A DNA stretch of 39,436 nucleotides, taken from IMG/VR virus record IMGVR_UViG_3300046522_000058, positions 1 to 39,436 of that record, one strand, 5' to 3'. The notes under the pieces were generated by a model. The model was given only the letters and a program-made list of their open reading frames with translations, had not been told where the DNA came from and did not search any database. The DNA is from a virus. Both the position numbers and the translations under genes were made by a program. Below, piece by piece: positions 1,347 to 34,901 of the stretch; within the stretch, counting starts at the first letter, position 1, and each line of letters opens with the position of its first letter.

Positions 1347-2723
1347 CTAGCTCACAGCGTCCATGTCTCCCAGGAACTCCGCAAGCTCATGATCATCGCC
1401 CCCGATTGCCCAGGACACGTCTAGCCGTTCAGCACGCTGTTTGGGGTGGAGCACGACCCGTAGCCCTACGTCAGCGAGCAAGCGCCCACGTTCCCCCGGG
1501 GAAGCGTCCCAGGCTTCGCCCAGCGTCCTCCCAGTGGGAATGAGCACCTCTCGTACGTCCGGGTCATGAGCGGCCCTCAGAGAGGCGTACGCGGCTTCTA
1601 GCTCCTCGGCCATCTCGCCCAGCTTGCCCAGCATGAGCGGACCAGCGGAAGCCATCTGCGCTGCGATCCGTTCCGCTTGCTCCTGAGCCTCTGCCATCTG
1701 GTCTGACATGTCGTTCCCGCCCTCAAGCCTGACGATGTGCTCCGCCATGCTCCCCCAACGGCGCTGGAACTCGTCGGTCACCCGCTGATCGAGGGTCTCG
1801 GCGTAGATGGTGACGTGCCCAAACTTGCACTTGTAGAGGCGCACGCCCTTGTCACTGCCCCCACCGTTCAGCGGACCCTCACAGCGATAGCACCAGGCCA
1901 TACCGGCGCACATGTTGGCTGCGCTGCGCGGGGCACGATCCTGACCCGTGGCTAGTGCCAGCATGCGGTTACGTACTGCCTTGTGTTCGGCAGCGCTCAG
2001 GATGGGGTCAGCGAACTGCACGGGCGTGATTCCGTCCTCAGCGAGCACCAGGGCGCCTCTGTGGCTCCTCTGACCGCGAAGCGTGGGGGACTTGAGCAAC
2101 CGGCGCCACTGAGCCTCTCCAATGCCCACCATGCGCGCTGTAGCTGCAACCGTGCCGTCACCTATGAGCTTTAGAACGGCTGTTCGGATCGCCTCTGCCT
2201 GCTCCTCGTTCACAGCGAGATAGGCGGCACCCTCGCGCCTGACCACGTCGTAACCGTACGGGGCCCGTCCGCTGGACCATCGGCCCTGCGTTCGTCGGGT
2301 GGCGTGTCCGTCGCTGATACGTCCGGCGATCATCGAGCGTTCCCACTCAGCGAGCGCAGCAAGCACCACAGCGACCATGCGGCCCGTTGGCGAAGCCGTG
2401 TTGATGGTGTTGTCTGTCGTGGCCACACGGACGTTGTGAGCCTCGCCCCAGGCAATCAGGCGCAGGAACTCGCTAACACTCCTCGCATAGCGATCGAGCT
2501 TCCAGGCGACCACCACAGCGGGACGAGCGGCCATGAGCGCACGCATGCCCTTACGCTGTTCCAGGGGCTTGGAGCCGCTTACGTTGGTGTCTACGAACTC
2601 TTCAGCGTCGTCAGGGTCGTAGCCGTTGCTGACCAACCACGTACGTGCAACGCGCCGTTGGGTGTCGATACTCGCGCTGTCGTCGTTCTCTCGGCTGAGC
2701 CGAATGTAGATCGCTACCGTCAT
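1347..2723 (-). CDS. int: Large serine integrase
   Basis: A 458-residue site-specific recombinase that would insert the phage DNA into the host chromosome and, with a directionality factor, excise it. The N-terminal resolvase domain has YIRLS with the nucleophile Ser10 and the LDRYAR motif (76-81). The recombinase domain follows, then a zinc ribbon with Cys272, Cys278, Cys281, Cys299 and His303. A helical, coiled-coil-like arm lies at about 340-385. It is shorter than phiC31 Int (about 610) and closer to R4-type integrases. The ATG at 2723 lies inside one arm of the inverted repeat described as attP. SD is weak. A gp3-like partner is at 17571-18296. Confidence 0.95.
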   Translation of the reverse strand: MTVAIYIRLSRENDDSASIDTQRRVARTWLVSNGYDPDDAEEFVDTNVSGSKPLEQRKGMRALMAARPAVVVAWKLDRYARSVSEFLRLIAWGEAHNVRVATTDNTINTASPTGRMVAVVLAALAEWERSMIAGRISDGHATRRTQGRWSSGRAPYGYDVVRREGAAYLAVNEEQAEAIRTAVLKLIGDGTVAATARMVGIGEAQWRRLLKSPTLRGQRSHRGALVLAEDGITPVQFADPILSAAEHKAVRNRMLALATGQDRAPRSAANMCAGMAWCYRCEGPLNGGGSDKGVRLYKCKFGHVTIYAETLDQRVTDEFQRRWGSMAEHIVRLEGGNDMSDQMAEAQEQAERIAAQMASAGPLMLGKLGEMAEELEAAYASLRAAHDPDVREVLIPTGRTLGEAWDASPGERGRLLADVGLRVVLHPKQRAERLDVSWAIGGDDHELAEFLGDMDAVS

Positions 2724-4149: not shown

Positions 4150-4178
4150 ACTCTACCACCTACGAAAGGCACTCGCAA
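4150..4178 (-). promoter_or_regulatory. Sigma70-like promoter with operator arm in its spacer
   Basis: On the minus strand there is a -35 TTGCGA (4173-4178), a 17-base spacer and a -10 TAGAGT (4150-4155). The spacer contains one operator arm (ACCTACGAA, 4158-4166). The following leader GGTAGAGTTTCACTCGTAAG is shared with the promoter at 4631. Confidence 0.6.
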
Positions 4179-4180
4179 CC

Positions 4181-4200
4181 ACCTACGAAAGTTCGTATGT
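4181..4200. promoter_or_regulatory. Operator-like palindrome, copy 2
   Basis: ACCTACGAA-AG-TTCGTATGT, one mismatch from the consensus, sits directly upstream of the -35 of the promoter at 4150-4178. With the single arm in the promoter spacer this makes one and a half sites at one promoter. Confidence 0.75.
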
Positions 4201-4221
4201 GGGCTGGACCACACCACCCTA

Positions 4222-4660: not shown

Positions 4661-4663
4661 CTC

Positions 4664-4683
4664 ACCTACGAAAATTCGTACGT
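4664..4683. promoter_or_regulatory. Operator-like palindrome, copy 3
   Basis: ACCTACGAA-AA-TTCGTACGT lies three bases upstream of the -35 of the 4631-4660 promoter. A protein bound here would contact or block RNA polymerase. Confidence 0.75.
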
Positions 4684-4694
4684 GGTCTACGTCA

Positions 4695-5514: not shown

Positions 5515-5544
5515 ACAGTACCCACCCACCTACGAAAAACGCAA
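5515..5544 (-). promoter_or_regulatory. Sigma70-like promoter with operator arm in its spacer
   Basis: TTGCGT (5539-5544), an 18-base spacer and TACTGT (5515-5520) on the minus strand. A single operator arm ACCTACGAA (plus strand 5528-5536) fills the spacer. The -35 lies within the last codons of the dCMP deaminase gene. Confidence 0.55.
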
Positions 5545-7144: not shown

Positions 7145-7176
7145 GGGGTCACCTACGAACTTTCGCAGGTGACCCC
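7145..7176. promoter_or_regulatory. Operator-like palindrome, copy 4, within a hairpin
   Basis: ACCTACGAA-CT-TTCGCAGGT (7151-7170) has one mismatch. GGGGTC and GACCCC flank it and extend the inverted repeat, so the transcript could fold into a 15-bp hairpin. It lies between the 58-residue gene and thyX. Only a weak T run follows, so termination would be partial at best. Confidence 0.7.
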
Positions 7177-7908: not shown

Positions 7909-9939
7909 TTACTTCACAGGGCAGGCGCCGGACGCGCAAGCCTCGTCGTACGACGCATCCACGCTCTTCGCGGTAGCAGCCTCGTACTCGTCCTCAGTGA
8001 TCCGCTCGTAGGGGCTCTGGGGACGCGTCAGGTCCGGGAACACAGTGGTTCCCTTCAGCTCCGACAGGAACCCTTCGAGCGTGTCAGCCGCTTCCTGAAC
8101 GTCCAGCGAGCCAGCGGGAATGTTCACAGTGAAGCTGACAGCGTTGTTCGCGTAGTGGCGCTGGTAGAGAGCCTGAAACGCGAGCATGTCAGAGAAGCTG
8201 ATCTCATCCGCAGACTCGACAATGTCAGCGGGGTAACCCATGGACTCAACCTCTTCCACAAGCTTTTCCTTGGTGGGGAACTCGACCACCACCGTGTTCC
8301 CGCTCTTGTCGTACACGTCCGCCTCTACCTTGTGGCCCTGGTCGAGGAACTCAGCCACGTTCGCAGCCTGCCTCTCGTCCACCACGCTGAAGCGCACACG
8401 GCGGATGAAATGCCGGGCGTAGATGGGGTGGATACCCTCAGTGGCTCCGGGCATCTTGGCAATGGTTCCGGTCGGCGCAACCGTGGTGGTCTTGACGGGT
8501 ACCGGGATGCGCAGTTCATGCGCGTAGTCAGCGGCAGCAGCGTTGACGGTTGCCTGCATGGCGTCCAGCGCACGGGCCACACGGGGCGAGCGGGAAGCCT
8601 CGCTGTACCGAATGCCCTGCTTGGCAAGGAAGCCCTGAACGCCGAAGTGACCAACGCCGATTCGCCGGTTACGGGCGAGCTTCTCAGCCTGCTTGGGGTC
8701 GTTGACGTCGCCGTAAGTGGCACGGATCAGGAAGCGAGCCATAAGGCGGTGTGCCTCGTAGATTCCAGCCATGTTGGCGCGCTTGCCCCGGACAGTCGGC
8801 GCGAACGCGTCTAGGTTGACGTGCCCCAGGTTGCAGTTCTCCCAGGCTTCTAGGGCGATCTCACCACACGGGTTGGTGGCAATAACCTCGTTGGGCTCAC
8901 CCTCGTTCGACAGATCCTTGTTCCAGTAACCAGGCTCGCCGTTGTCCAGCATGCCGCGCGTGGACGCAAGGTGAACGGCCGTAGCGTGCTCGTCCTTGGC
9001 GCTGAGAGCAGCCGTAAACGCGTTGTCGATGACCACCGAAATGTTGGTCGTCCAGTGCTTGCCCGTGTCCGCCTTGCAGTTGATGAAATCGAAGATGAAC
9101 GGGTCATCCCACTCGACCATTGCCATGCGGGCAGAGCGCCGGTTACCGCCCGAGACAACACACTCAGCAATGGCGTGGTCTATCTCCATGGCTTCCAGCG
9201 GGTAGACGTAGTCAGCGCGCGAGGCTGCACCGTTCATCACAGAGTTGATGTCCAGCATCATGCGCGCGAACGGACGGGGGCCCGAGGCAGTACCGCCGAA
9301 GGTGCGGAGAGGCTGGCCAGCACCACGGACACGCGACACGTCGTAGACCCGCTCAGTGTGGGCAACGTCGCCCCGGTAGTAGGTATCGATCAGGTCGACC
9401 ATTGCAGCCGCCCAACCCTCGCGGGAGTCCTCAACCGGGAAGGCTCCGCCCCATTCGTGGGAGTAGTCGTCAGAGAGCACACCAGCGGCGCGCATGACGT
9501 CGTAATCCGGGTGGGTGGGGTCACACACCACATGGACGTTCAGAGGCTGCGAGGGGGCACCGTACGGCTTCAGGAAGCGTGACGAGTAGTTCGCCCCGAC
9601 TCCCCCACCCTCCATGAGTCGCATGAAGGTGAACTCAAAGTGATCCGACAGGGCCTTGCCCCATCCGCTGACATGGCAGTTGAAGAGGTACTGACGACCA
9701 GGGACGCCGGAAGCCCAGAGGTGACGACCAGCGGGAAGGATCTTGAAGTCATACATCAGCTCGATCAGCCGCTCACGCTCACCAGGCTCGATGCGCTGGG
9801 CAGGGACCAGGCCCGTGTTCCCGTCAACCACGCGGGTCACAGTGTCGAGCCACGTCTCACGCTGGCCGTTGGGCTTGACTCGCTGGTAGGTGCGCTCGTA
9901 AACGGTGGCGCCGGTCGGTCCAAACTTGGGGTCGTGCAA
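7909..9939 (-). CDS. nrdJ: Class II (adenosylcobalamin-dependent) ribonucleoside-triphosphate reductase
   Basis: A 676-residue monomeric reductase. Three cysteines match the Lactobacillus leichmannii RTPR set: Cys88 (FNCHV), Cys358 (NPCGE, the thiyl-radical cysteine) and Cys369 (NCNLGHVN). The last two are 11 residues apart, as in RTPR. The C-terminus carries a CX4C redox pair (Cys668, Cys673 in CASGACPVK), reduced by a thioredoxin; the phage encodes one at 5940. The enzyme needs vitamin B12, which actinobacteria commonly make. The start is TTG 9939 with GAGGAG seven bases upstream. It follows the sigma-like gene after a terminator. Confidence 0.95.
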   Translation of the reverse strand: MHDPKFGPTGATVYERTYQRVKPNGQRETWLDTVTRVVDGNTGLVPAQRIEPGERERLIELMYDFKILPAGRHLWASGVPGRQYLFNCHVSGWGKALSDHFEFTFMRLMEGGGVGANYSSRFLKPYGAPSQPLNVHVVCDPTHPDYDVMRAAGVLSDDYSHEWGGAFPVEDSREGWAAAMVDLIDTYYRGDVAHTERVYDVSRVRGAGQPLRTFGGTASGPRPFARMMLDINSVMNGAASRADYVYPLEAMEIDHAIAECVVSGGNRRSARMAMVEWDDPFIFDFINCKADTGKHWTTNISVVIDNAFTAALSAKDEHATAVHLASTRGMLDNGEPGYWNKDLSNEGEPNEVIATNPCGEIALEAWENCNLGHVNLDAFAPTVRGKRANMAGIYEAHRLMARFLIRATYGDVNDPKQAEKLARNRRIGVGHFGVQGFLAKQGIRYSEASRSPRVARALDAMQATVNAAAADYAHELRIPVPVKTTTVAPTGTIAKMPGATEGIHPIYARHFIRRVRFSVVDERQAANVAEFLDQGHKVEADVYDKSGNTVVVEFPTKEKLVEEVESMGYPADIVESADEISFSDMLAFQALYQRHYANNAVSFTVNIPAGSLDVQEAADTLEGFLSELKGTTVFPDLTRPQSPYERITEDEYEAATAKSVDASYDEACASGACPVK

Positions 9940-9999: not shown

Positions 10000-11118
10000 C
10001 TACTTGCGACCAGCGGGCTTGCGCGCCTCAGCGGCAGCAGCCTCCCAGGCCAGCCGGTCAGCGTCGTCCGTGGCCACGATGTCGATGTACTTGCCCGCGA
10101 ACTCCGTACGGGCCTGCGACAGGTTCACCTTGCAGGTACCAGCGGTGAAGCCCAGGTGAGCGGCCAGTCCCTCACGGTCGCATCCGTCGCCCCACCCGAA
10201 GTCTTCAACGCCACCGATGCCGAACGAGTGGACCAGGACCACACGACGCGAGGGGCGCATACCGTCCAGCGCGCTGTGAACGCCATCGATCTTGGCTGCC
10301 TTGTCCTCACGGCGATCGTCGGACACGTCGCGCAGGTCATCAGTGAGCGCGGACTCAGTGGCAGTCGAGACGTAGCTACGGAGGATCGCAACGGCGTCCA
10401 GTACGTACCGGCGAACCGTTTCGTCACGCGGAACGGTGAGGGTGTCCTCGATCGCGTCAACGTCCTCAGCGGCCACCGGAAGGGCCGAGAGCACCTCGCG
10501 GGCGGTCGAGTACGTCTGAAGCACTGCGAGAGCTTCCAGGGCGGCACCACGGCCCACCTTGGGGCGGATCTCGTCGTTGCTCTCGTCGGTCACGGCCAGC
10601 GTGTGAATGATGCTGGTCTCGTCGTCGTCACCGCTGGTCTTGTCGATGGACACCGGACCCTGCCACGCGAGGCGAGCAGCAAAGGCCCGGTCCTTGCTCA
10701 GCCGCTTGCCCTTGGCCGGAACAGTCTGGGCGAGCTTCTCAGCCTCGAACACGTTGCCCTCAGCGAGAGTGACCATGGCCTTGAAGGTGGAGAACGCATC
10801 CCGGTCCACACCGGCGTTCCGCTCAGCGTTCGTCTTGGCCTTCAGCTCACCGGCCATGGCGCCGTACAGGTACTCACGGAAGGCGTCCACGCTGTCACCC
10901 TCCCAGCGCGGGAGGTACTCGAAGAGAGCAACAAGCGCGTCCTGCCGGAACTCCTCGGCGTAGTCGCTGTACCGGGCCGGGTTGGTGGCCAGTACACCCG
11001 CAGCCTTGGAAGCGAGGCGCCCAATCCGGCTGTCCATCTCGTCGAGCACAGCGCGGATGGCGTCAAGGTCGTTGTTCTGGGCGGCGTGGATCTGGTCCAG
11101 GGTCAGGTTCGCGCTCAT
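10000..11118 (-). CDS. Sigma-like RNA polymerase factor (predicted)
   Basis: A 372-residue protein with sigma-70-like organisation. The N-terminal third has EEFRQDALVALFEYLPRWEG and FREYLYGAMAGELKAK, resembling regions 2 and 3. The C-terminal part (RRVVLVHSFGIGGVEDFGWG, then REGLAAHLGFTAGTCKVNLS) resembles region 4, with a helix-turn-helix between GLAAHLG and the second helix. I start at ATG 11118 (GGGAG SD). The longer frame to 11397 would translate the promoter and leader. It may redirect host polymerase to phage promoters, perhaps late ones. An alternative is a non-sigma DNA-binding protein with a similar fold. Confidence 0.65.
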   Translation of the reverse strand: MSANLTLDQIHAAQNNDLDAIRAVLDEMDSRIGRLASKAAGVLATNPARYSDYAEEFRQDALVALFEYLPRWEGDSVDAFREYLYGAMAGELKAKTNAERNAGVDRDAFSTFKAMVTLAEGNVFEAEKLAQTVPAKGKRLSKDRAFAARLAWQGPVSIDKTSGDDDETSIIHTLAVTDESNDEIRPKVGRGAALEALAVLQTYSTAREVLSALPVAAEDVDAIEDTLTVPRDETVRRYVLDAVAILRSYVSTATESALTDDLRDVSDDRREDKAAKIDGVHSALDGMRPSRRVVLVHSFGIGGVEDFGWGDGCDREGLAAHLGFTAGTCKVNLSQARTEFAGKYIDIVATDDADRLAWEAAAAEARKPAGRK

Positions 11119-11195: not shown

Positions 11196-11225
11196 GTTCT
11201 ACGTGGTTTTTCGTAGGTGGTGCAA
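11196..11225 (-). promoter_or_regulatory. Sigma70-like promoter of the sigma-like gene, with operator arms
   Basis: TTGCAC (11220-11225), an 18-base spacer and TAGAAC (11196-11201) on the minus strand. An operator arm (TTCGTAGGT, 11210-11218) fills the spacer and another (11232-11240) lies upstream of the -35. Confidence 0.55.
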
Positions 11226-11403
11226 GCAGCTTTCGTAGGTGACAAGCTGTTAGATCAGCTACTAAGGGAGGTCGTTGTAAGGGATTCCAAGGCGTTACCC
11301 GGGTTCGTACCTTGGAAGTAGTGGGTTTGGCATCCGCAAACGGTTTCGTTAGCTGCGAATGTGGGTGTTTGCAGTGACTACATGTGAGCCGCAGCACAAC
11401 GAC
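11226..11403. other. Non-coding region between polymerase and sigma-like gene, with nested inverted repeats
   Basis: The stretch has no convincing gene. It contains TTCCAAGG and CCTTGGAA arms (11285-11317) around a TACCCGGGT palindrome, further GCAAAC and GTTTGC inverted arms (about 11335-11373), and an operator arm at 11232-11240. It could be an extended promoter region or a replication origin next to the polymerase gene. I cannot decide from sequence. Confidence 0.4.
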
Positions 11404-13328: not shown

Positions 13329-13360
13329 GGGGCCACCTACGAACTTTCGTAGATGACCCC
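13329..13360 (-). terminator. Terminator hairpin containing operator-like palindrome, copy 5
   Basis: GGGG and CCCC flank ACCTACGAA-CT-TTCGTAGAT (13335-13354), so the palindrome forms the stem of a 32-base hairpin. On the minus strand it is followed by TTTG. It separates the primase-helicase from polymerase. A protein bound to the DNA palindrome and the RNA hairpin would both reduce read-through. Confidence 0.65.
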
Positions 13361-15931: not shown

Positions 15932-16360
15932 CTAGAACGGGGGCTCTTCCGGCTGCCCGAACGTCTCGGACCACTCGGCCAGCGTCTTTGCTCCCTTGCT
16001 CAGGTTGCAGGGTGCGCACGCTGGGACGATGTTGGATTCCGTGTCGCTGCCTCCCTTGCTCAGCGGCTCGACATGGTCAAGGTGGGTGGCGTGCGCTCCG
16101 CAGTAGGCACACTTGTGGTTCCAGCGTTCGAGAATCGCGGTACGCGAGTACTCCTCATGGGCAACGCCGTAGGTCTCAGCACGTCGCTTGTGGGTGAGCG
16201 TGTGCCGCTTGTCCGGGGGCAACGACCGGTAGTAGTTCTTGACGTGCTGCTGTTGCTTCTTACGGCGACAGGTAGCGCATGCGCTGGACGGCTTCTTAGC
16301 TTTGCCAGCGAGGAACTGGGCAGCGGGCTTTCCCCGCCCGCATAGTCGGCACACCTGCAC
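15932..16360 (-). CDS. HNH endonuclease, 142 aa
   Basis: The N-terminal zinc knuckles (CRLCGRG, CATC) and a basic helix (RRKKQQQHVKNYYR) precede an HNH core. The core comprises CAYC, THLDHVEPLSKGG, Asn in ESNIVPACAPCNLSKG, and a closing LAEWSETFG. This core is nearly the same as that of the 7587-7895 gene, so one probably arose from the other or both came from one mobile family. The start is GTG 16360. Its Shine-Dalgarno GGAGGTG is the right arm of an operator palindrome altered by one base. It sits ahead of primase-helicase, a common site for homing nucleases. Confidence 0.9.
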   Translation of the reverse strand: MQVCRLCGRGKPAAQFLAGKAKKPSSACATCRRKKQQQHVKNYYRSLPPDKRHTLTHKRRAETYGVAHEEYSRTAILERWNHKCAYCGAHATHLDHVEPLSKGGSDTESNIVPACAPCNLSKGAKTLAEWSETFGQPEEPPF

Positions 16361-16365
16361 TGGGC

Positions 16366-16385
16366 ACCTCCGAAAGTTCGTATGT
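16366..16385. promoter_or_regulatory. Operator-like palindrome, copy 6, doubling as Shine-Dalgarno
   Basis: ACCTCCGAA-AG-TTCGTATGT. The change of A to C in the left arm (plus strand) creates GGAGG on the minus strand, at the right distance for the HNH GTG start. Protein binding and ribosome binding share the same bases. Confidence 0.65.
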
Positions 16386-16393
16386 GGTCAACC

Positions 16394-17570: not shown

Positions 17571-18296
17571 TTAGCGCTCCTCGCCGATCGCGTCGTTGTA
17601 GGAACCCAGCACGGTCAGCACGGGCTTGCGGTAGCTGACGTCAATGCCAGCCTTGTTGGTGTACTGGACGTGCTCAAGTTCGAGCCGTACCAGGGCCTCA
17701 CCGTCGACCTGGTCAAGGGCGTCCTTGACCTCATGGATGACCTCAGCGAGAGACCAGGCCGTAGCGATCAGCTTTCCGGCGCCCAGCTCGTAGCCAGCAC
17801 CAGCGAGACGGAACGTGACGTTGATCGAGGGGGACGGACCACGGCGACGCTTGGCAAGGTCCTTGCGCTCAGCCATCGTTCGCGGGCATCCGCACGGCTG
17901 GCCCTTGTCCTCAGCGGGAGACAGGAAGTACTCACCGTCGCACTCATGGACCGGACCGCCCGGACCCCACAGGATCAGCTTGTCTTCGATGGCCTTGGAG
18001 CCGTTGACCACGATCTCAACCGAGGGGGTCTCGGTCATGACGTGCAAGTTCATCTGCTTGGTGGGGTCGTACTCCTCAGCCGTACCGCCGAGCAGCTCAG
18101 AGATGCCCTGCGCCACGCTCGGATCGTCGGTCAGGACACGCCAGTTGGCCAGGCTCACCGGCTCCATGCGTCGGGTGTCAGGGTTGCGGACCTGCATACC
18201 AGACCGGAACTGGAAGACCGGGCGCTCATACTCAACCTTCGCCTTGCGCGGCTTGGGCTTGGCGTCAGGGTCGGTGTCGAAGATGCGCAGGGCCAT
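17571..18296 (-). CDS. Recombination directionality factor-like protein (phiC31 gp3 family)
   Basis: A 241-residue protein whose opening (MALRIFDTDPDAKPKP) and overall size resemble the phiC31 gp3 family. In that family gp3 binds the serine integrase and switches it from integration to excision. Conserved-looking features are RPVFQFRSGMQVRN (26-39), a cysteine cluster with Cys119, Cys135 and Cys137 that may bind metal, and a basic patch (AKRRRGPSPS). The ATG at 18296 follows a leader of about 110 bases after the 17-bp element. It lies 15 kb from int, as in phiC31 where gp3 is an early replication-region gene. The family may also have a replication role. Confidence 0.7.
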   Translation of the reverse strand: MALRIFDTDPDAKPKPRKAKVEYERPVFQFRSGMQVRNPDTRRMEPVSLANWRVLTDDPSVAQGISELLGGTAEEYDPTKQMNLHVMTETPSVEIVVNGSKAIEDKLILWGPGGPVHECDGEYFLSPAEDKGQPCGCPRTMAERKDLAKRRRGPSPSINVTFRLAGAGYELGAGKLIATAWSLAEVIHEVKDALDQVDGEALVRLELEHVQYTNKAGIDVSYRKPVLTVLGSYNDAIGEER

Positions 18297-18428: not shown

Positions 18429-19256
18429 CTACGCTCGCCGCTGAGTACCAGTGATCAGCGCGCCATCCGTCGACCAGATGGGATCACCAAGCACGGTCTT
18501 GCTCGTCTTGTTGACCCACTCGAACGTTCGGCGCAGCGTGGTGAAGTGATCGAACACTTCCTGATCGATGCGGACCGGCTTGAACGCTGCCTGATCCTCA
18601 GTGATGTGCAGGACCACAGCGCCGTCAAAGTCGGGCATCGGCTCTTCGTTGCCCTGCGGGTCGACGATCTTGTCTGCATGGGCGTACGCGGACATCTGTA
18701 GGGCCACGTCCGGGTAGGTGCTCTTCGAGGTCTTCCAGTCCGCCATGACCAGGGCGGTTTCCCCCTGCGGGTCAGGCTTGCCCTTGTCGTCGAGCTTCAG
18801 GCGCAGGATGCCGTCAAAGCTTCCGGCGTACTCATGGGTGTCAGACCAGGCGACGTCTTCAGCGCGCACAAGCTCAGGCTGTACGCCGTCGAGGAACGCA
18901 GCGAAGTTGCGCTGATACGGGACCATGTCCGGGTGAACGCGACCGACGTACTCACCCCGGATCATGCGCTCGAACAGGTCGTGTGCGTCGCTGCCCACCT
19001 TGCTGCGAGTCTTGGTGTAGCGGTTGGCTGCACCCTTCAGGTACTGCACAGCGCCGTCACGGTCTCGCGCTGCCATCTGCTCAATGAAGTCCAGCGAATC
19101 GACGGCCAGCTCTGCAACCATCTTCGCTTGCCAGAATGCAAGGAACGGCTTGGGCAGCATGCCAACGACTGACGTCACGCCCGGGTACTTGATCTCGGGC
19201 GCAGCCTCGTTGAAGTAGAAGCGCGAACCGGAGCGCTGGATAGTGCGGATTCCCAC
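18429..19256 (-). CDS. PD-(D/E)XK exonuclease, RecB/Cas4-like
   Basis: A 275-residue nuclease. The active-site set is readable in order: His92 (GSDAHDLFE), Asp148 (AGSFDGILRL), Asp173 and Lys175 (MADWKTSKS), and the QxxxY motif Gln187-Tyr191 (LQMSAYA). Such proteins process DNA ends in phage recombination and replication. No iron-sulfur cysteine cluster is present, so it is not a true Cas4. The start is GTG 19256, after a leader with a 7-bp hairpin. It shares an operon with the gp3-like gene. Confidence 0.88.
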   Translation of the reverse strand: MGIRTIQRSGSRFYFNEAAPEIKYPGVTSVVGMLPKPFLAFWQAKMVAELAVDSLDFIEQMAARDRDGAVQYLKGAANRYTKTRSKVGSDAHDLFERMIRGEYVGRVHPDMVPYQRNFAAFLDGVQPELVRAEDVAWSDTHEYAGSFDGILRLKLDDKGKPDPQGETALVMADWKTSKSTYPDVALQMSAYAHADKIVDPQGNEEPMPDFDGAVVLHITEDQAAFKPVRIDQEVFDHFTTLRRTFEWVNKTSKTVLGDPIWSTDGALITGTQRRA

Positions 19257-19311: not shown

Positions 19312-19402
19312 CTGACGAACTGACGAACAGTACTGAGGATCTTGTTTCCCTTAGAGTTTTCTTAGGTGTTCTAGAAACATAGGTAAGTTCGTCAGTTCGT
19401 CA
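19312..19402. repeat. 91-bp duplicated element, copy B
   Basis: The counterpart of 1128-1218, with an identical 34-bp core at 19346-19379. CTGACGAA units are tandem on the left and inverted on the right. On the minus strand CTGACG-(16)-TATGTT inside it could serve as a weak promoter for the exonuclease operon. It lies between the terminator of the 421-residue gene and the 17-bp element. Confidence 0.8.
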
Positions 19403-19442
19403 GGATTGAGGCTCATCCGCTGTATGGCCGTGTGCGGGCATG

Positions 19443-19488
19443 AAAAAGCCCCGCCCGACCAGGTCACCAGGGACCGGCCGAACGGGGC
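19443..19488 (-). terminator. Intrinsic terminator after the 421-aa gene
   Basis: On the minus strand a long GC stem (GCCCCGTTCGGCC with GGTCGGGCGGGGC, about 13 pairs) is followed by TTTTT. It closes the single-gene unit 19508-20773. Confidence 0.88.
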
Positions 19489-19507: not shown

Positions 19508-20773
19508 CTACAGGGTGGCAGTAATCATGGCCTTGACTGCTGCGTAGAGTTCCTCAAGCTCAGCGCGGATGGCGTCCTTGGTCTCCTCGCTCGCTGACTC
19601 GAAGTCTTCCGGCTTGGCCTTGGATACGTCCCGCTTCATCTTCTGGACGAACGAGCGCACGCGTACGTCAGGGGTTTCCTCGGGGGTCTCCTCGGGCGCC
19701 TCGATCTCCTCGGGGACAGGCTCACCAGCGGTCAGCGCAGCCTTGGCCCTGTACCTCTCGCGCTGCAACTCGCCGTGCCCCTTCAGCTGCGTCCCGTACA
19801 GGTCAGCGATGAACTTGGACACGGGCACATCTTCCGGCTTGGCCTCAAGAGCCTTGGCGTACCGCTTCTGCTCCTCGGGGTCCGTGTCGAGGCTGCGCAG
19901 GTACTTGGCGCGCACGTCAGAACGCTGGTGCTGCACGGCACGCTGAAGCTTGTTGAGCGCCTCTTCCGTGTCGTAGTCCCGCTCGAACCCCTCCCCTGCC
20001 TTGGCGTACAGCGCGCGTGCTGCCTCCTTCGCTGCGTGGCTTGCACCCAGGATGTCAGGGTTGCCCTCCTTGTTGGGGATGCGGTGCCACATGTCCAGCA
20101 TGATGGCAGCAACATCCTTGGCAAGGTCGCTGGTCTTCAGGTGCAGCTTGACACCCTCGGCCACCCGCTCAGCACCATCAGCGATGAGTTCTGAGACACC
20201 CGCGTAGATGCTGTAGTCCTTGGGGTCGACCGAGTCAACCTCAGCCTTGGGCTTGGCCTTGGGCTCAGGCTTCTCCTGTACCAGGGCAGCAGCGCGGAAC
20301 TCCTCACGCAGCCGCTTCTTGAGTCCGGCGAACGTCTCGTCACCGTGCTTGCCCCGGGTCGGCAGGCCGCTGATGAGTGTCTCGGTCTCCTTGTTCAGCG
20401 CTGCGAGACCCTCGGCGTTCTCGGCCTCAGCAAGCGACTTGGCGCGCTCGATGTTCGCCTCTACCTGCTCGATGGTCTGCTCAGGGTTGTTCTCGGTCAC
20501 GATCTCTCCCGTGGTTTCGGCCTCAGCCAACATGGCCTCAGCGGCTTTCTCGCAGGTCTTGCACAGCTTGCGCGTCGACTTGCGCGCAGCTTCCAGGGCC
20601 TCACGCAGCGACTCGAACGACTGTCCGTCAGCGAAGCGGTACCGAGTCAGTGAACCGCAAGCGTTCTGCGAGTAGTCCGAAACGTAACCGTCACGCTCGA
20701 CGCCCCCACCAGTAGTACGGATCTCCAGCCCAGCGATGTGGGTTGTGGTCCGGTTGTACTTGAGGGTGAACAT
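19508..20773 (-). CDS. Unknown 421-aa protein in its own transcription unit
   Basis: ATG 20773 has GGAGAGG seven bases upstream. The N-terminal about 70 residues look like a small domain (AGLEIRTTGGGVERDGYVS, ADGQSFESLREALEAARK) with a CKTC cysteine pair. Long charged, alanine-rich helices follow, then a linker PVPEEIEAPEETPEETPDVR and a helical tail. I recognise no family and no clear helix-turn-helix. It has the best -35 in the window, an operator arm beside it, and terminators on both sides. That isolation is what one expects of a lysogeny gene such as a repressor, but this is inference. A nucleoid- or replication-associated protein is equally possible. Confidence 0.75.
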   Translation of the reverse strand: MFTLKYNRTTTHIAGLEIRTTGGGVERDGYVSDYSQNACGSLTRYRFADGQSFESLREALEAARKSTRKLCKTCEKAAEAMLAEAETTGEIVTENNPEQTIEQVEANIERAKSLAEAENAEGLAALNKETETLISGLPTRGKHGDETFAGLKKRLREEFRAAALVQEKPEPKAKPKAEVDSVDPKDYSIYAGVSELIADGAERVAEGVKLHLKTSDLAKDVAAIMLDMWHRIPNKEGNPDILGASHAAKEAARALYAKAGEGFERDYDTEEALNKLQRAVQHQRSDVRAKYLRSLDTDPEEQKRYAKALEAKPEDVPVSKFIADLYGTQLKGHGELQRERYRAKAALTAGEPVPEEIEAPEETPEETPDVRVRSFVQKMKRDVSKAKPEDFESASEETKDAIRAELEELYAAVKAMITATL

Positions 20774-20813: not shown

Positions 20814-20854
20814 AGCTTAGGTGACTAGGTCTCAGGTGTCAAACCACTTACGAA
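20814..20854 (-). promoter_or_regulatory. Strong sigma70-like promoter with operator arm
   Basis: Consensus TTGACA (20837-20842), a 17-base spacer and TAAGCT (20814-20819) on the minus strand. An operator arm (ACTTACGAA, plus strand 20846-20854) lies just upstream and overlaps the T tract of the preceding terminator. Confidence 0.65.
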
Positions 20855-20901: not shown

Positions 20902-21453
20902 CTACAGCGGGAGATCGGCGAGCCGGGTGTAGAGATCCTCGATTCCGGCCGTGTTGTAGACGACGTGATCAGCCTCAAAGGCGTTCAGCGCTGTCTCGCT
21001 GGAATGCAAGGCAGCGTCACCGTTCAGCCGCTCGGGCCGGACGATGCGGACCAGGGTGAAGCCACGGGCGCGCAGGGCCTCAGCCTCGTTGGGGTACCGG
21101 ACGTCAGCCACGACTACGGGTAGGTTCCACGCTTCGGCCGTGTCTAGCTTCCGGTCCATGGCGTTGACCCAGTAGTTGTCATCGTGCTCGCGGATGCTCT
21201 GGCCCGTGTGCTGCAACAGGCGCCGAACCTCCGGGTAGTTGTCCTTGGCGTACTCCCAACCGACGTCACGGATCAGCGCGTCAAGGCGGACATGTACGCC
21301 GTAACCAGTGGGTACCAGCGGGTTGATGCTGAGCGTCATCTCTTTGAGCGGGTCAGCGAATGCGAGCCGGGTGTAAGCGTGCTTCCGCACGAAGTACAGG
21401 GCAGCCGTGTCTTTCCCGCTGCGAGCCTTACCGATGATGCCGATGTTCCGCAC
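20902..21453 (-). CDS. Deoxynucleoside monophosphate kinase
   Basis: A 183-residue P-loop kinase that would phosphorylate dNMPs, probably dTMP among them, toward dNTPs. The Walker A GKARSGKD lies at residues 8-15, followed by RLAFADPLKEM, the usual phage dNMP kinase motif. WVNAMDRKL and VVADVRYPNEAEALRARG match the family middle and LID regions. The start is GTG 21453 with AGGAGAGGG upstream, behind the 17-bp element and a leader hairpin. It complements ThyX and dCMP deaminase although it sits after the lysis genes. Confidence 0.88.
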   Translation of the reverse strand: MRNIGIIGKARSGKDTAALYFVRKHAYTRLAFADPLKEMTLSINPLVPTGYGVHVRLDALIRDVGWEYAKDNYPEVRRLLQHTGQSIREHDDNYWVNAMDRKLDTAEAWNLPVVVADVRYPNEAEALRARGFTLVRIVRPERLNGDAALHSSETALNAFEADHVVYNTAGIEDLYTRLADLPL

Positions 21454-22846: not shown

Positions 22847-22898
22847 GTGGGTTACTCCTTCGTGTGAGGGGCGGGGGCCTGCGCCGTGCAGGACCCCC

Positions 22899-22918
22899 AC
22901 CTACGAACTTTCGTACGT
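22899..22918. promoter_or_regulatory. Operator-like palindrome, copy 7
   Basis: ACCTACGAA-CT-TTCGTACGT starts right after the tailspike-like stop codon and lies about 55 bases before the endolysin start. No -35/-10 pair accompanies it, so it looks like a stoperator rather than a promoter operator. Confidence 0.75.
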
Positions 22919-22919
22919 G

Positions 22920-30232: not shown

Positions 30233-30258
30233 CCGGCACCCCCTTTCTGTCCGTAGTC

Positions 30259-30278
30259 ACCTACGAACTTTCGTACGT
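30259..30278. promoter_or_regulatory. Operator-like palindrome, copy 8
   Basis: ACCTACGAA-CT-TTCGTACGT encodes the last residues (TYESS) and stop codon of the tail chaperone and lies 27 bases before the tape measure start. The site is thus kept within coding sequence in the middle of the late operon. Confidence 0.75.
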
Positions 30279-30602
30279 CCGGACGCTCCCGCCCAGAGCC
30301 GTGTTCGCCTTCATGACGTCTTGCCAAATCTCCTGGGGCGTCTTCTTGCGCTTGAACCACGTAGGCAGGAAGTCAGACGGCCTAGCACGCTTCTTGGCGC
30401 CACCGGCGTTGTGCACCGTGGCAGCAATGATGCTTGCGCTGATTTCGGCTCGTAGCCGTACGTCAAGGGGGCCGGTCACCCGCTCGTACGCCATCCATTC
30501 GGTTAGTTCCCGGGAAGACGTACGGGCGAGCAACTCGGCCACAGGCATGCCCAGATGACCAGCGAGACGGAAGTAGAACTGTCGCTCTGGACGGGACGTC
30601 AG
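30261..30602 (-). CDS. Tail assembly chaperone, frameshifted extension (GT-type)
   Basis: This is the downstream part of the frameshift product, not an independent gene. Slippage by -1 at GGGAAAC (30602-30608) joins codons of the upstream chaperone to LTSRPERQFYFRLAGHLG and on to the stop at 30261, giving about 234 residues in all. The in-frame ATG at 30548 has no SD. RELTEWMAYERVTGPLDVR and RAEISASIIAATVHN match the T part of tail chaperones of this kind. Chaperones of this type bind tape measure during tail assembly; the tape measure gene follows. Confidence 0.88.
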   Translation of the reverse strand: MTSRPERQFYFRLAGHLGMPVAELLARTSSRELTEWMAYERVTGPLDVRLRAEISASIIAATVHNAGGAKKRARPSDFLPTWFKRKKTPQEIWQDVMKANTALGGSVRTYESS

Positions 30603-34839: not shown

Positions 34840-34866
34840 GCGGGACTCCATATCTGCGCGTTGCGC

Positions 34867-34886
34867 GCGTACGAAAGTTCGTAGGT
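34867..34886. promoter_or_regulatory. Operator-like palindrome, copy 9
   Basis: GCGTACGAA-AG-TTCGTAGGT lies between the MuF-like gene and scaffold, 28 bases ahead of the scaffold start. It is the rightmost copy found, deep in the structural operon, with no clear promoter around it. Confidence 0.7.
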
Positions 34887-34901
34887 GCTCCGGACGTTGC
34901 G

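Follow-up and report, generated by a model that had tools for sequence, protein, structure and literature searches.

The established repressor of phage phiC31 is its c protein (683 aa, Lomovskayavirus C31; CAA07123), which has binding sites at many dispersed places and is reported to come in three isoforms (PMC4557955, citing Smith and Owen 1991 for the isoforms). The same article describes the repressor of mycobacteriophage L5 and its stoperators, many sites dispersed over the genome, an arrangement that resembles the one proposed here. In L5 a monomer binds an asymmetric site, whereas the sites in the window are palindromic; the likeness is in the way of working, and no protein homology is claimed.

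The window, i.e. the whole stretch of 39,436 nt that was analysed, comes from a Streptomyces virus (IMG/VR record IMGVR_UViG_3300046522_000058). An earlier note, made from the letters by eye, had recognised no repressor in it and had put forward an isolated gene for a 421-aa protein as the best candidate for a lysogeny regulator. The window resembles phiC31 in the Pfam family, conserved core and gene slot of this protein, and also in its N-terminal H-C-CxxC modules, its predicted internal starts of translation and the palindromic operators that are dispersed over its gene boundaries. It differs in that its c protein has 421 aa and one N-terminal module, as opposed to two in phiC31, and in features of the operators that are given below.

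Identity of the 421-aa protein

The gene (19508–20773, minus strand) starts with ATG and would encode a 46 kDa protein. In a profile search against Pfam, this protein matched PF25746 (Phage_Repressor_c, titled 'Streptomyces phage repressor protein c') with 255.5 bits (E 1.1e-75; curated cut-off 27 bits), the match spanning residues 93–419 of the protein and positions 2–352 of the 352 in the profile. Using tblastn, it matched phiBT1 c, the 'immunity repressor' of Rowa and others. The Rowa protein (487 aa) is the closest cultured relative in the core, at 50% identity, and in close relatives the core is intact and 68–85% identical. The earlier statement that no repressor could be recognised is therefore overturned by the profile search on the very same gene, and reflects the limit of reading by eye without tools. 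The absence of a helix-turn-helix repressor did hold for this protein, for which the CI-like, Xre and TetR families gave no meaningful Pfam score; TetR_C_13 was rejected (E 0.088, below cut-off). Since the whole-family alignment of c was too diverse for a locus search, narrower alignments were used instead.

We consider, with a probability of roughly 0.93, that the gene encodes the immunity repressor of the phage and belongs to the c family of phiC31. The role of lysogeny regulator proposed in the earlier note is supported by the homology to phiC31 c, the gene slot, the genome-wide palindromic operators and a relative in a prophage, from which we infer the function. Members of the c family were found in 6 of 296 Streptomyces genomes and in none of 14 control genomes. 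In Streptomyces sp. NRRL S-31, the c relative belongs to a chromosomal prophage on a 207-kb contig, with a serine integrase lying ~25 kb upstream of it, and the prophage contains the integrase, tRNAs, structural genes (portal), c and replication genes (primase, polymerase). This prophage carries ~14 operators of the window phage's type, spread over 58.5–95.0 kb of the contig, and within the 56 kb examined none lay outside the prophage.

The earlier note had also pointed to a CxxC pair and long helices in the protein, and had suggested structure prediction. Both features are present (the pair is C71 and C74), and an AlphaFold2 model of c, made with 24 sequences, has an all-helical core with a pLDDT mostly of 80–92 at residues 190–340. 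The prediction bore out the helices but gave no recognisable helix-turn-helix, and its pTM was 0.42. A profile search by sequence for relatives with solved structures returned only weak, unrelated matches. The helix at 246–260 and an Arg-rich helix at 333–349 differ between the operator classes described below; as a candidate specificity region these helices are a lead only, being confounded by phylogeny.

The c locus and its neighbours

The c gene lies downstream of the structural genes, between the genes for a dNMP kinase (20902–21453; PF21448), its upstream neighbour, and an exonuclease (18429–19256; phiC31 gp1/Cas4-like, with a DNA match to phiC31-group gp1/exonuclease), its downstream neighbour, and on the same minus strand as both. 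Apart from intervening small genes, phiC31, phiBT1, Shawty, Rowa and others have their genes in this order too (dNMP kinase–c–exonuclease), and the NRRL S-31 prophage has a homologue of the exonuclease at the equivalent position. By DNA, the region around c is best matched by phiSASD1, in which there is no c gene at the syntenic gap.

As the earlier note had it, the gene is real and stands alone between two terminators, both of them strong and on the minus strand. The upstream one (20896–20859; 17-bp stem followed by T6, z −6.6) ends the dNMP kinase unit, and its T-run occupies the place of the distal operator arm of the relatives; the downstream one is at 19488–19448 (z −3.2). The c promoter (20842–20814, minus strand) comprises a −35 TTGACA (20842–20837), a 17-nt spacer and a −10 TAAGCT (20819–20814), at a position conserved in three relatives (L031, L033 and L034). 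To call it the best consensus promoter was an overstatement by the measure of a generic sigma-70 scan, in which it scored below threshold and was not flagged; the evidence for this promoter is consequently its conservation in the relatives.

An operator arm, CACTTACGAA, is indeed present at 20845–20854, adjoining the −35 box. In L031 and L033 there is a complete palindrome at the c promoter, abutting TTTGACA; in the window, the full operator has been lost and the single arm is left. This reduction to one arm suggests a weaker or altered autoregulation. The window also differs from phiC31 in that a full operator is missing both from the c promoter and from the inside of the c gene.

The integrase and directionality factor named in the earlier note were both found, as a serine integrase (1347–2723, minus strand; PF00239, Resolvase domain) and a Gp3-like recombination directionality factor (17571–18296, minus strand; PF18897). 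Immediately upstream of the integrase start, an inverted repeat CATGTACTCAAGG...CCTTGAGTACATG (2724–2775), seen by eye, is a candidate attP. Separately, the window has a gene for a B12-dependent (class II) ribonucleotide reductase (7909–9939; PF02867, PF21995), an enzyme not named in the annotations of phiC31 or phiBT1.

Operators, half-operators and their probable reader

The operator consensus is a 22-bp palindrome, CACCTACGAA-NN-TTCGTAGGTG. The palindrome of the earlier note corresponds to this operator, of which the window has nine full copies with ≤2 mismatches, where none was expected (100 shuffles gave none), located at or beside gene boundaries. The site at 454–475 has two mismatches to the consensus. 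Those at 4180–4201 and 4663–4684 are just upstream of promoter-like sequences on the minus strand, TTGCGA-N17-TAGAGT and TTGAAA-N18-TAGAGT, respectively. Others are upstream of thyX (7150–7171), between the genes for primase and DNA polymerase I (13334–13355), directly after TTGAC and upstream of the gene at 15932–16360, HNH-like by position (16365–16386), and upstream of the endolysin gene (22898–22919). The last two are at a gene boundary (30258–30279) and at a gene boundary in the structural region (34866–34887). Some sites have kept their position: phiC31 and phiBT1 too have an operator following their primase gene and one preceding the endolysin gene.

A single de novo search procedure found operators in nearly every relative, and these vary on one fixed dyad frame. 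The window and its close relatives L031, L033 and L035, which have a closely similar c, share the operator CACCTACGAAN/NTTCGTAGGTG. The operator is CCTACTCAC/GTGAGTAGG in phiC31, phiBT1, Shawty, Vash, Lilbooboo and Samora; CCYACTCTY/RAGAGTRGG in Heather, Sebastisaurus and RemusLoopin; CCACCTCAC/GTGAGGTGG in Nesbitt; CACCTAGTAAC/GTTACTAGGTG in Shady; and an odd form of 17 bp in Euratis. The outer CCTAC at dyad positions −9 to −5 is common to the operators of the window and of phiC31, phiBT1 and Shawty. The inner box at −4 to −2 is GAA in the window and TCA in phiC31, and the window operator has an extra outer CA/TG. Rowa (CACCTMCGRAN/NTYCGKAGGTG) is like the window in its operator frame, CACCTMCGRANNTYCGKAGGTG, but has another N-terminal module, 16–17 operators and a complete operator upstream of c.

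Because the operator and repressor clades share their phylogeny, this covariation alone is no proof that the 421-aa protein reads the palindromes. They might instead be read as promoter elements by a different phage protein (e.g. the sigma-factor-like one), with c acting elsewhere; the sites do adjoin promoter-like hexamers, and a sigma-like gene is present in the window. We regard this as very improbable: the sites are outside the hexamers or in their spacer rather than forming them, sites of one dyad frame accompany the c family across phages, and the phiC31 repressor itself is reported (PMC4557955) to have multiple dispersed binding sites.

As a further difference from phiC31, the window contains four exact isolated half-operator arms, versus 0.05 expected. 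Two (11232–11241 and 11210–11219, minus strand) are upstream of the sigma-factor-like gene, the latter within the spacer of TTGCAC-N18-TAGAAC; a third (4157–4166) is likewise in a promoter-like spacer, and the fourth (5527–5536) is upstream of a small gene. Exact isolated arms were absent from the four phiC31-group genomes scanned (phiC31, phiBT1, Shawty and Lilbooboo), and there is one each in L031, L033, L034, Rowa and L067. The sigma-factor-like gene itself (10003–11106; phrog_15865, E 3e-110) probably starts near 11106 and not at the GTG of the longest open reading frame.

These sites also bear on whether the 421-aa protein might be a c relative that no longer represses, immunity being conferred by another gene. 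Such a loss would accord with the upstream operator of c having been cut to one arm, and several small early genes without an assigned function could supply the alternative. On the other hand, the phage has kept the nine operators near gene starts, together with four additional exact half-sites, which would be unexpected if their reader were dead; the core of c is intact at the level of conservation given above; and a scan of 20 other genes of the window gave no match to any repressor family. We therefore give a non-repressing c hardly any weight, and retain c as the probable immunity repressor.

Predicted isoforms, N-terminal modules and other repeats

Residues 1–91 of c (20501–20773, minus strand) form an exchangeable N-terminal module with a possible zinc site (His12, Cys39, Cys71, Cys74). 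Most members of the family, although otherwise little alike here, have the H...C...CxxC pattern once or twice, from which we infer that the module is zinc-knuckle-like and could bind zinc. In the window, the module shares 67% identity with the beginning of Shawty c and 50–58% with the beginning of unrelated proteins from Dryad-like phages; the phiC31 version heads a protein of Xkcd426. As an observation in its own right, Dryad gp100 and Xkcd426 gp74 (L079:1495-2226 and L080:771-1466), otherwise unrelated to c, begin with H-C-CxxC modules of c repressors.

At the border of module and core, the Shine–Dalgarno sequence GGGAGAG (20510–20504) precedes an internal GTG at codon 92 (20500–20498), from which a core isoform of 330 aa and 36 kDa is predicted (19508–20500, minus strand). 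An internal in-frame start with a Shine–Dalgarno sequence at this border was present in every one of the 30 extended members that were scored. The mean duplex energy was −8.0 kcal/mol, versus −4.3 for the control stretches, and the strongest candidate start per stretch was used for real sites and controls alike; the p-value of 4e-11 is only indicative as the sequences are related. In phiC31 c, two of the three strongest internal starts predict N-terminally shortened forms of 495 and 384 aa, in keeping with the reported three-isoform system. We thus predict two c proteins, one of 46 kDa with the N-terminal module and one of 36 kDa that is the core alone. With a lower but appreciable probability, the gene makes one protein only and codon 92 is unused, given that the start is GTG rather than ATG and that the c gene of the window lacks an internal operator, unlike phiC31. 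Yet the Shine–Dalgarno sequence has been kept at the border behind unrelated N-terminal modules, and the c of L034 (69% identical) begins at the codon-92 point, with no N-terminal extension; this argues for the two predicted products.

In the mechanism that we propose, the all-helical core (residues 92–421) would bind CACCTACGAA-NN-TTCGTAGGTG as a dimer, and the dimers would sit at dispersed sites beside early promoters and block transcription of lytic genes. The silenced genes would include the replication genes, thyX and endolysin, with the phage sigma factor being reached through half-sites, and this silencing would maintain lysogeny and immunity. The half-operator at the −35 box of c itself may tune repressor synthesis, probably more weakly than in the relatives with a full palindrome. 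What is new is in the details, namely a further operator specificity, the half-operators, and the clear regularity in the position of the internal start. More tentatively, the family may have re-coded its operator specificity many times on a fixed 22-bp dyad frame, whilst swapping zinc-knuckle-like modules before a core with its own internal start; the window phage would add half-operators embedded in promoters and at its own c promoter, so that full and half sites could be distinguished in different ways by the core form and the full-length form.

The analysis identifies the most likely holder of lytic-gene silence in this phage and gives a map of operators and isoforms that can be tested. 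With ~30 repressors paired with their own operators, the DNA-reading code of a family with no recognised helix-turn-helix becomes directly testable, as do the immunity groups of phiC31-type phages.

Two other repeats were observed in the window. An element of ~104 bp is present in two copies (1128–1231 and 19312–19415), about 84% identical and bounded by the inverted repeats CTGACGAACTGACGAAC...GTTCGTCAGTTCGTCAG; one copy follows the integrase gene and the other is between the c and exonuclease genes. The element has a very stable predicted fold (z −5.7). A search of other viral contigs for its 19-bp core gave no match, and its end repeat occurs once in L034. A miniature mobile element is one possibility, a further regulatory site another. 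Lastly, GCTAACC[G/C]ACTCGACAG occurs in eight minus-strand copies (at 1100, 7574, 11152, 13406, 15898, 18409, 19292 and 21490), mostly in the gap preceding a gene start, and also in the relative L034; it is another recurrent signal, for regulation or processing, and differs from the operators.
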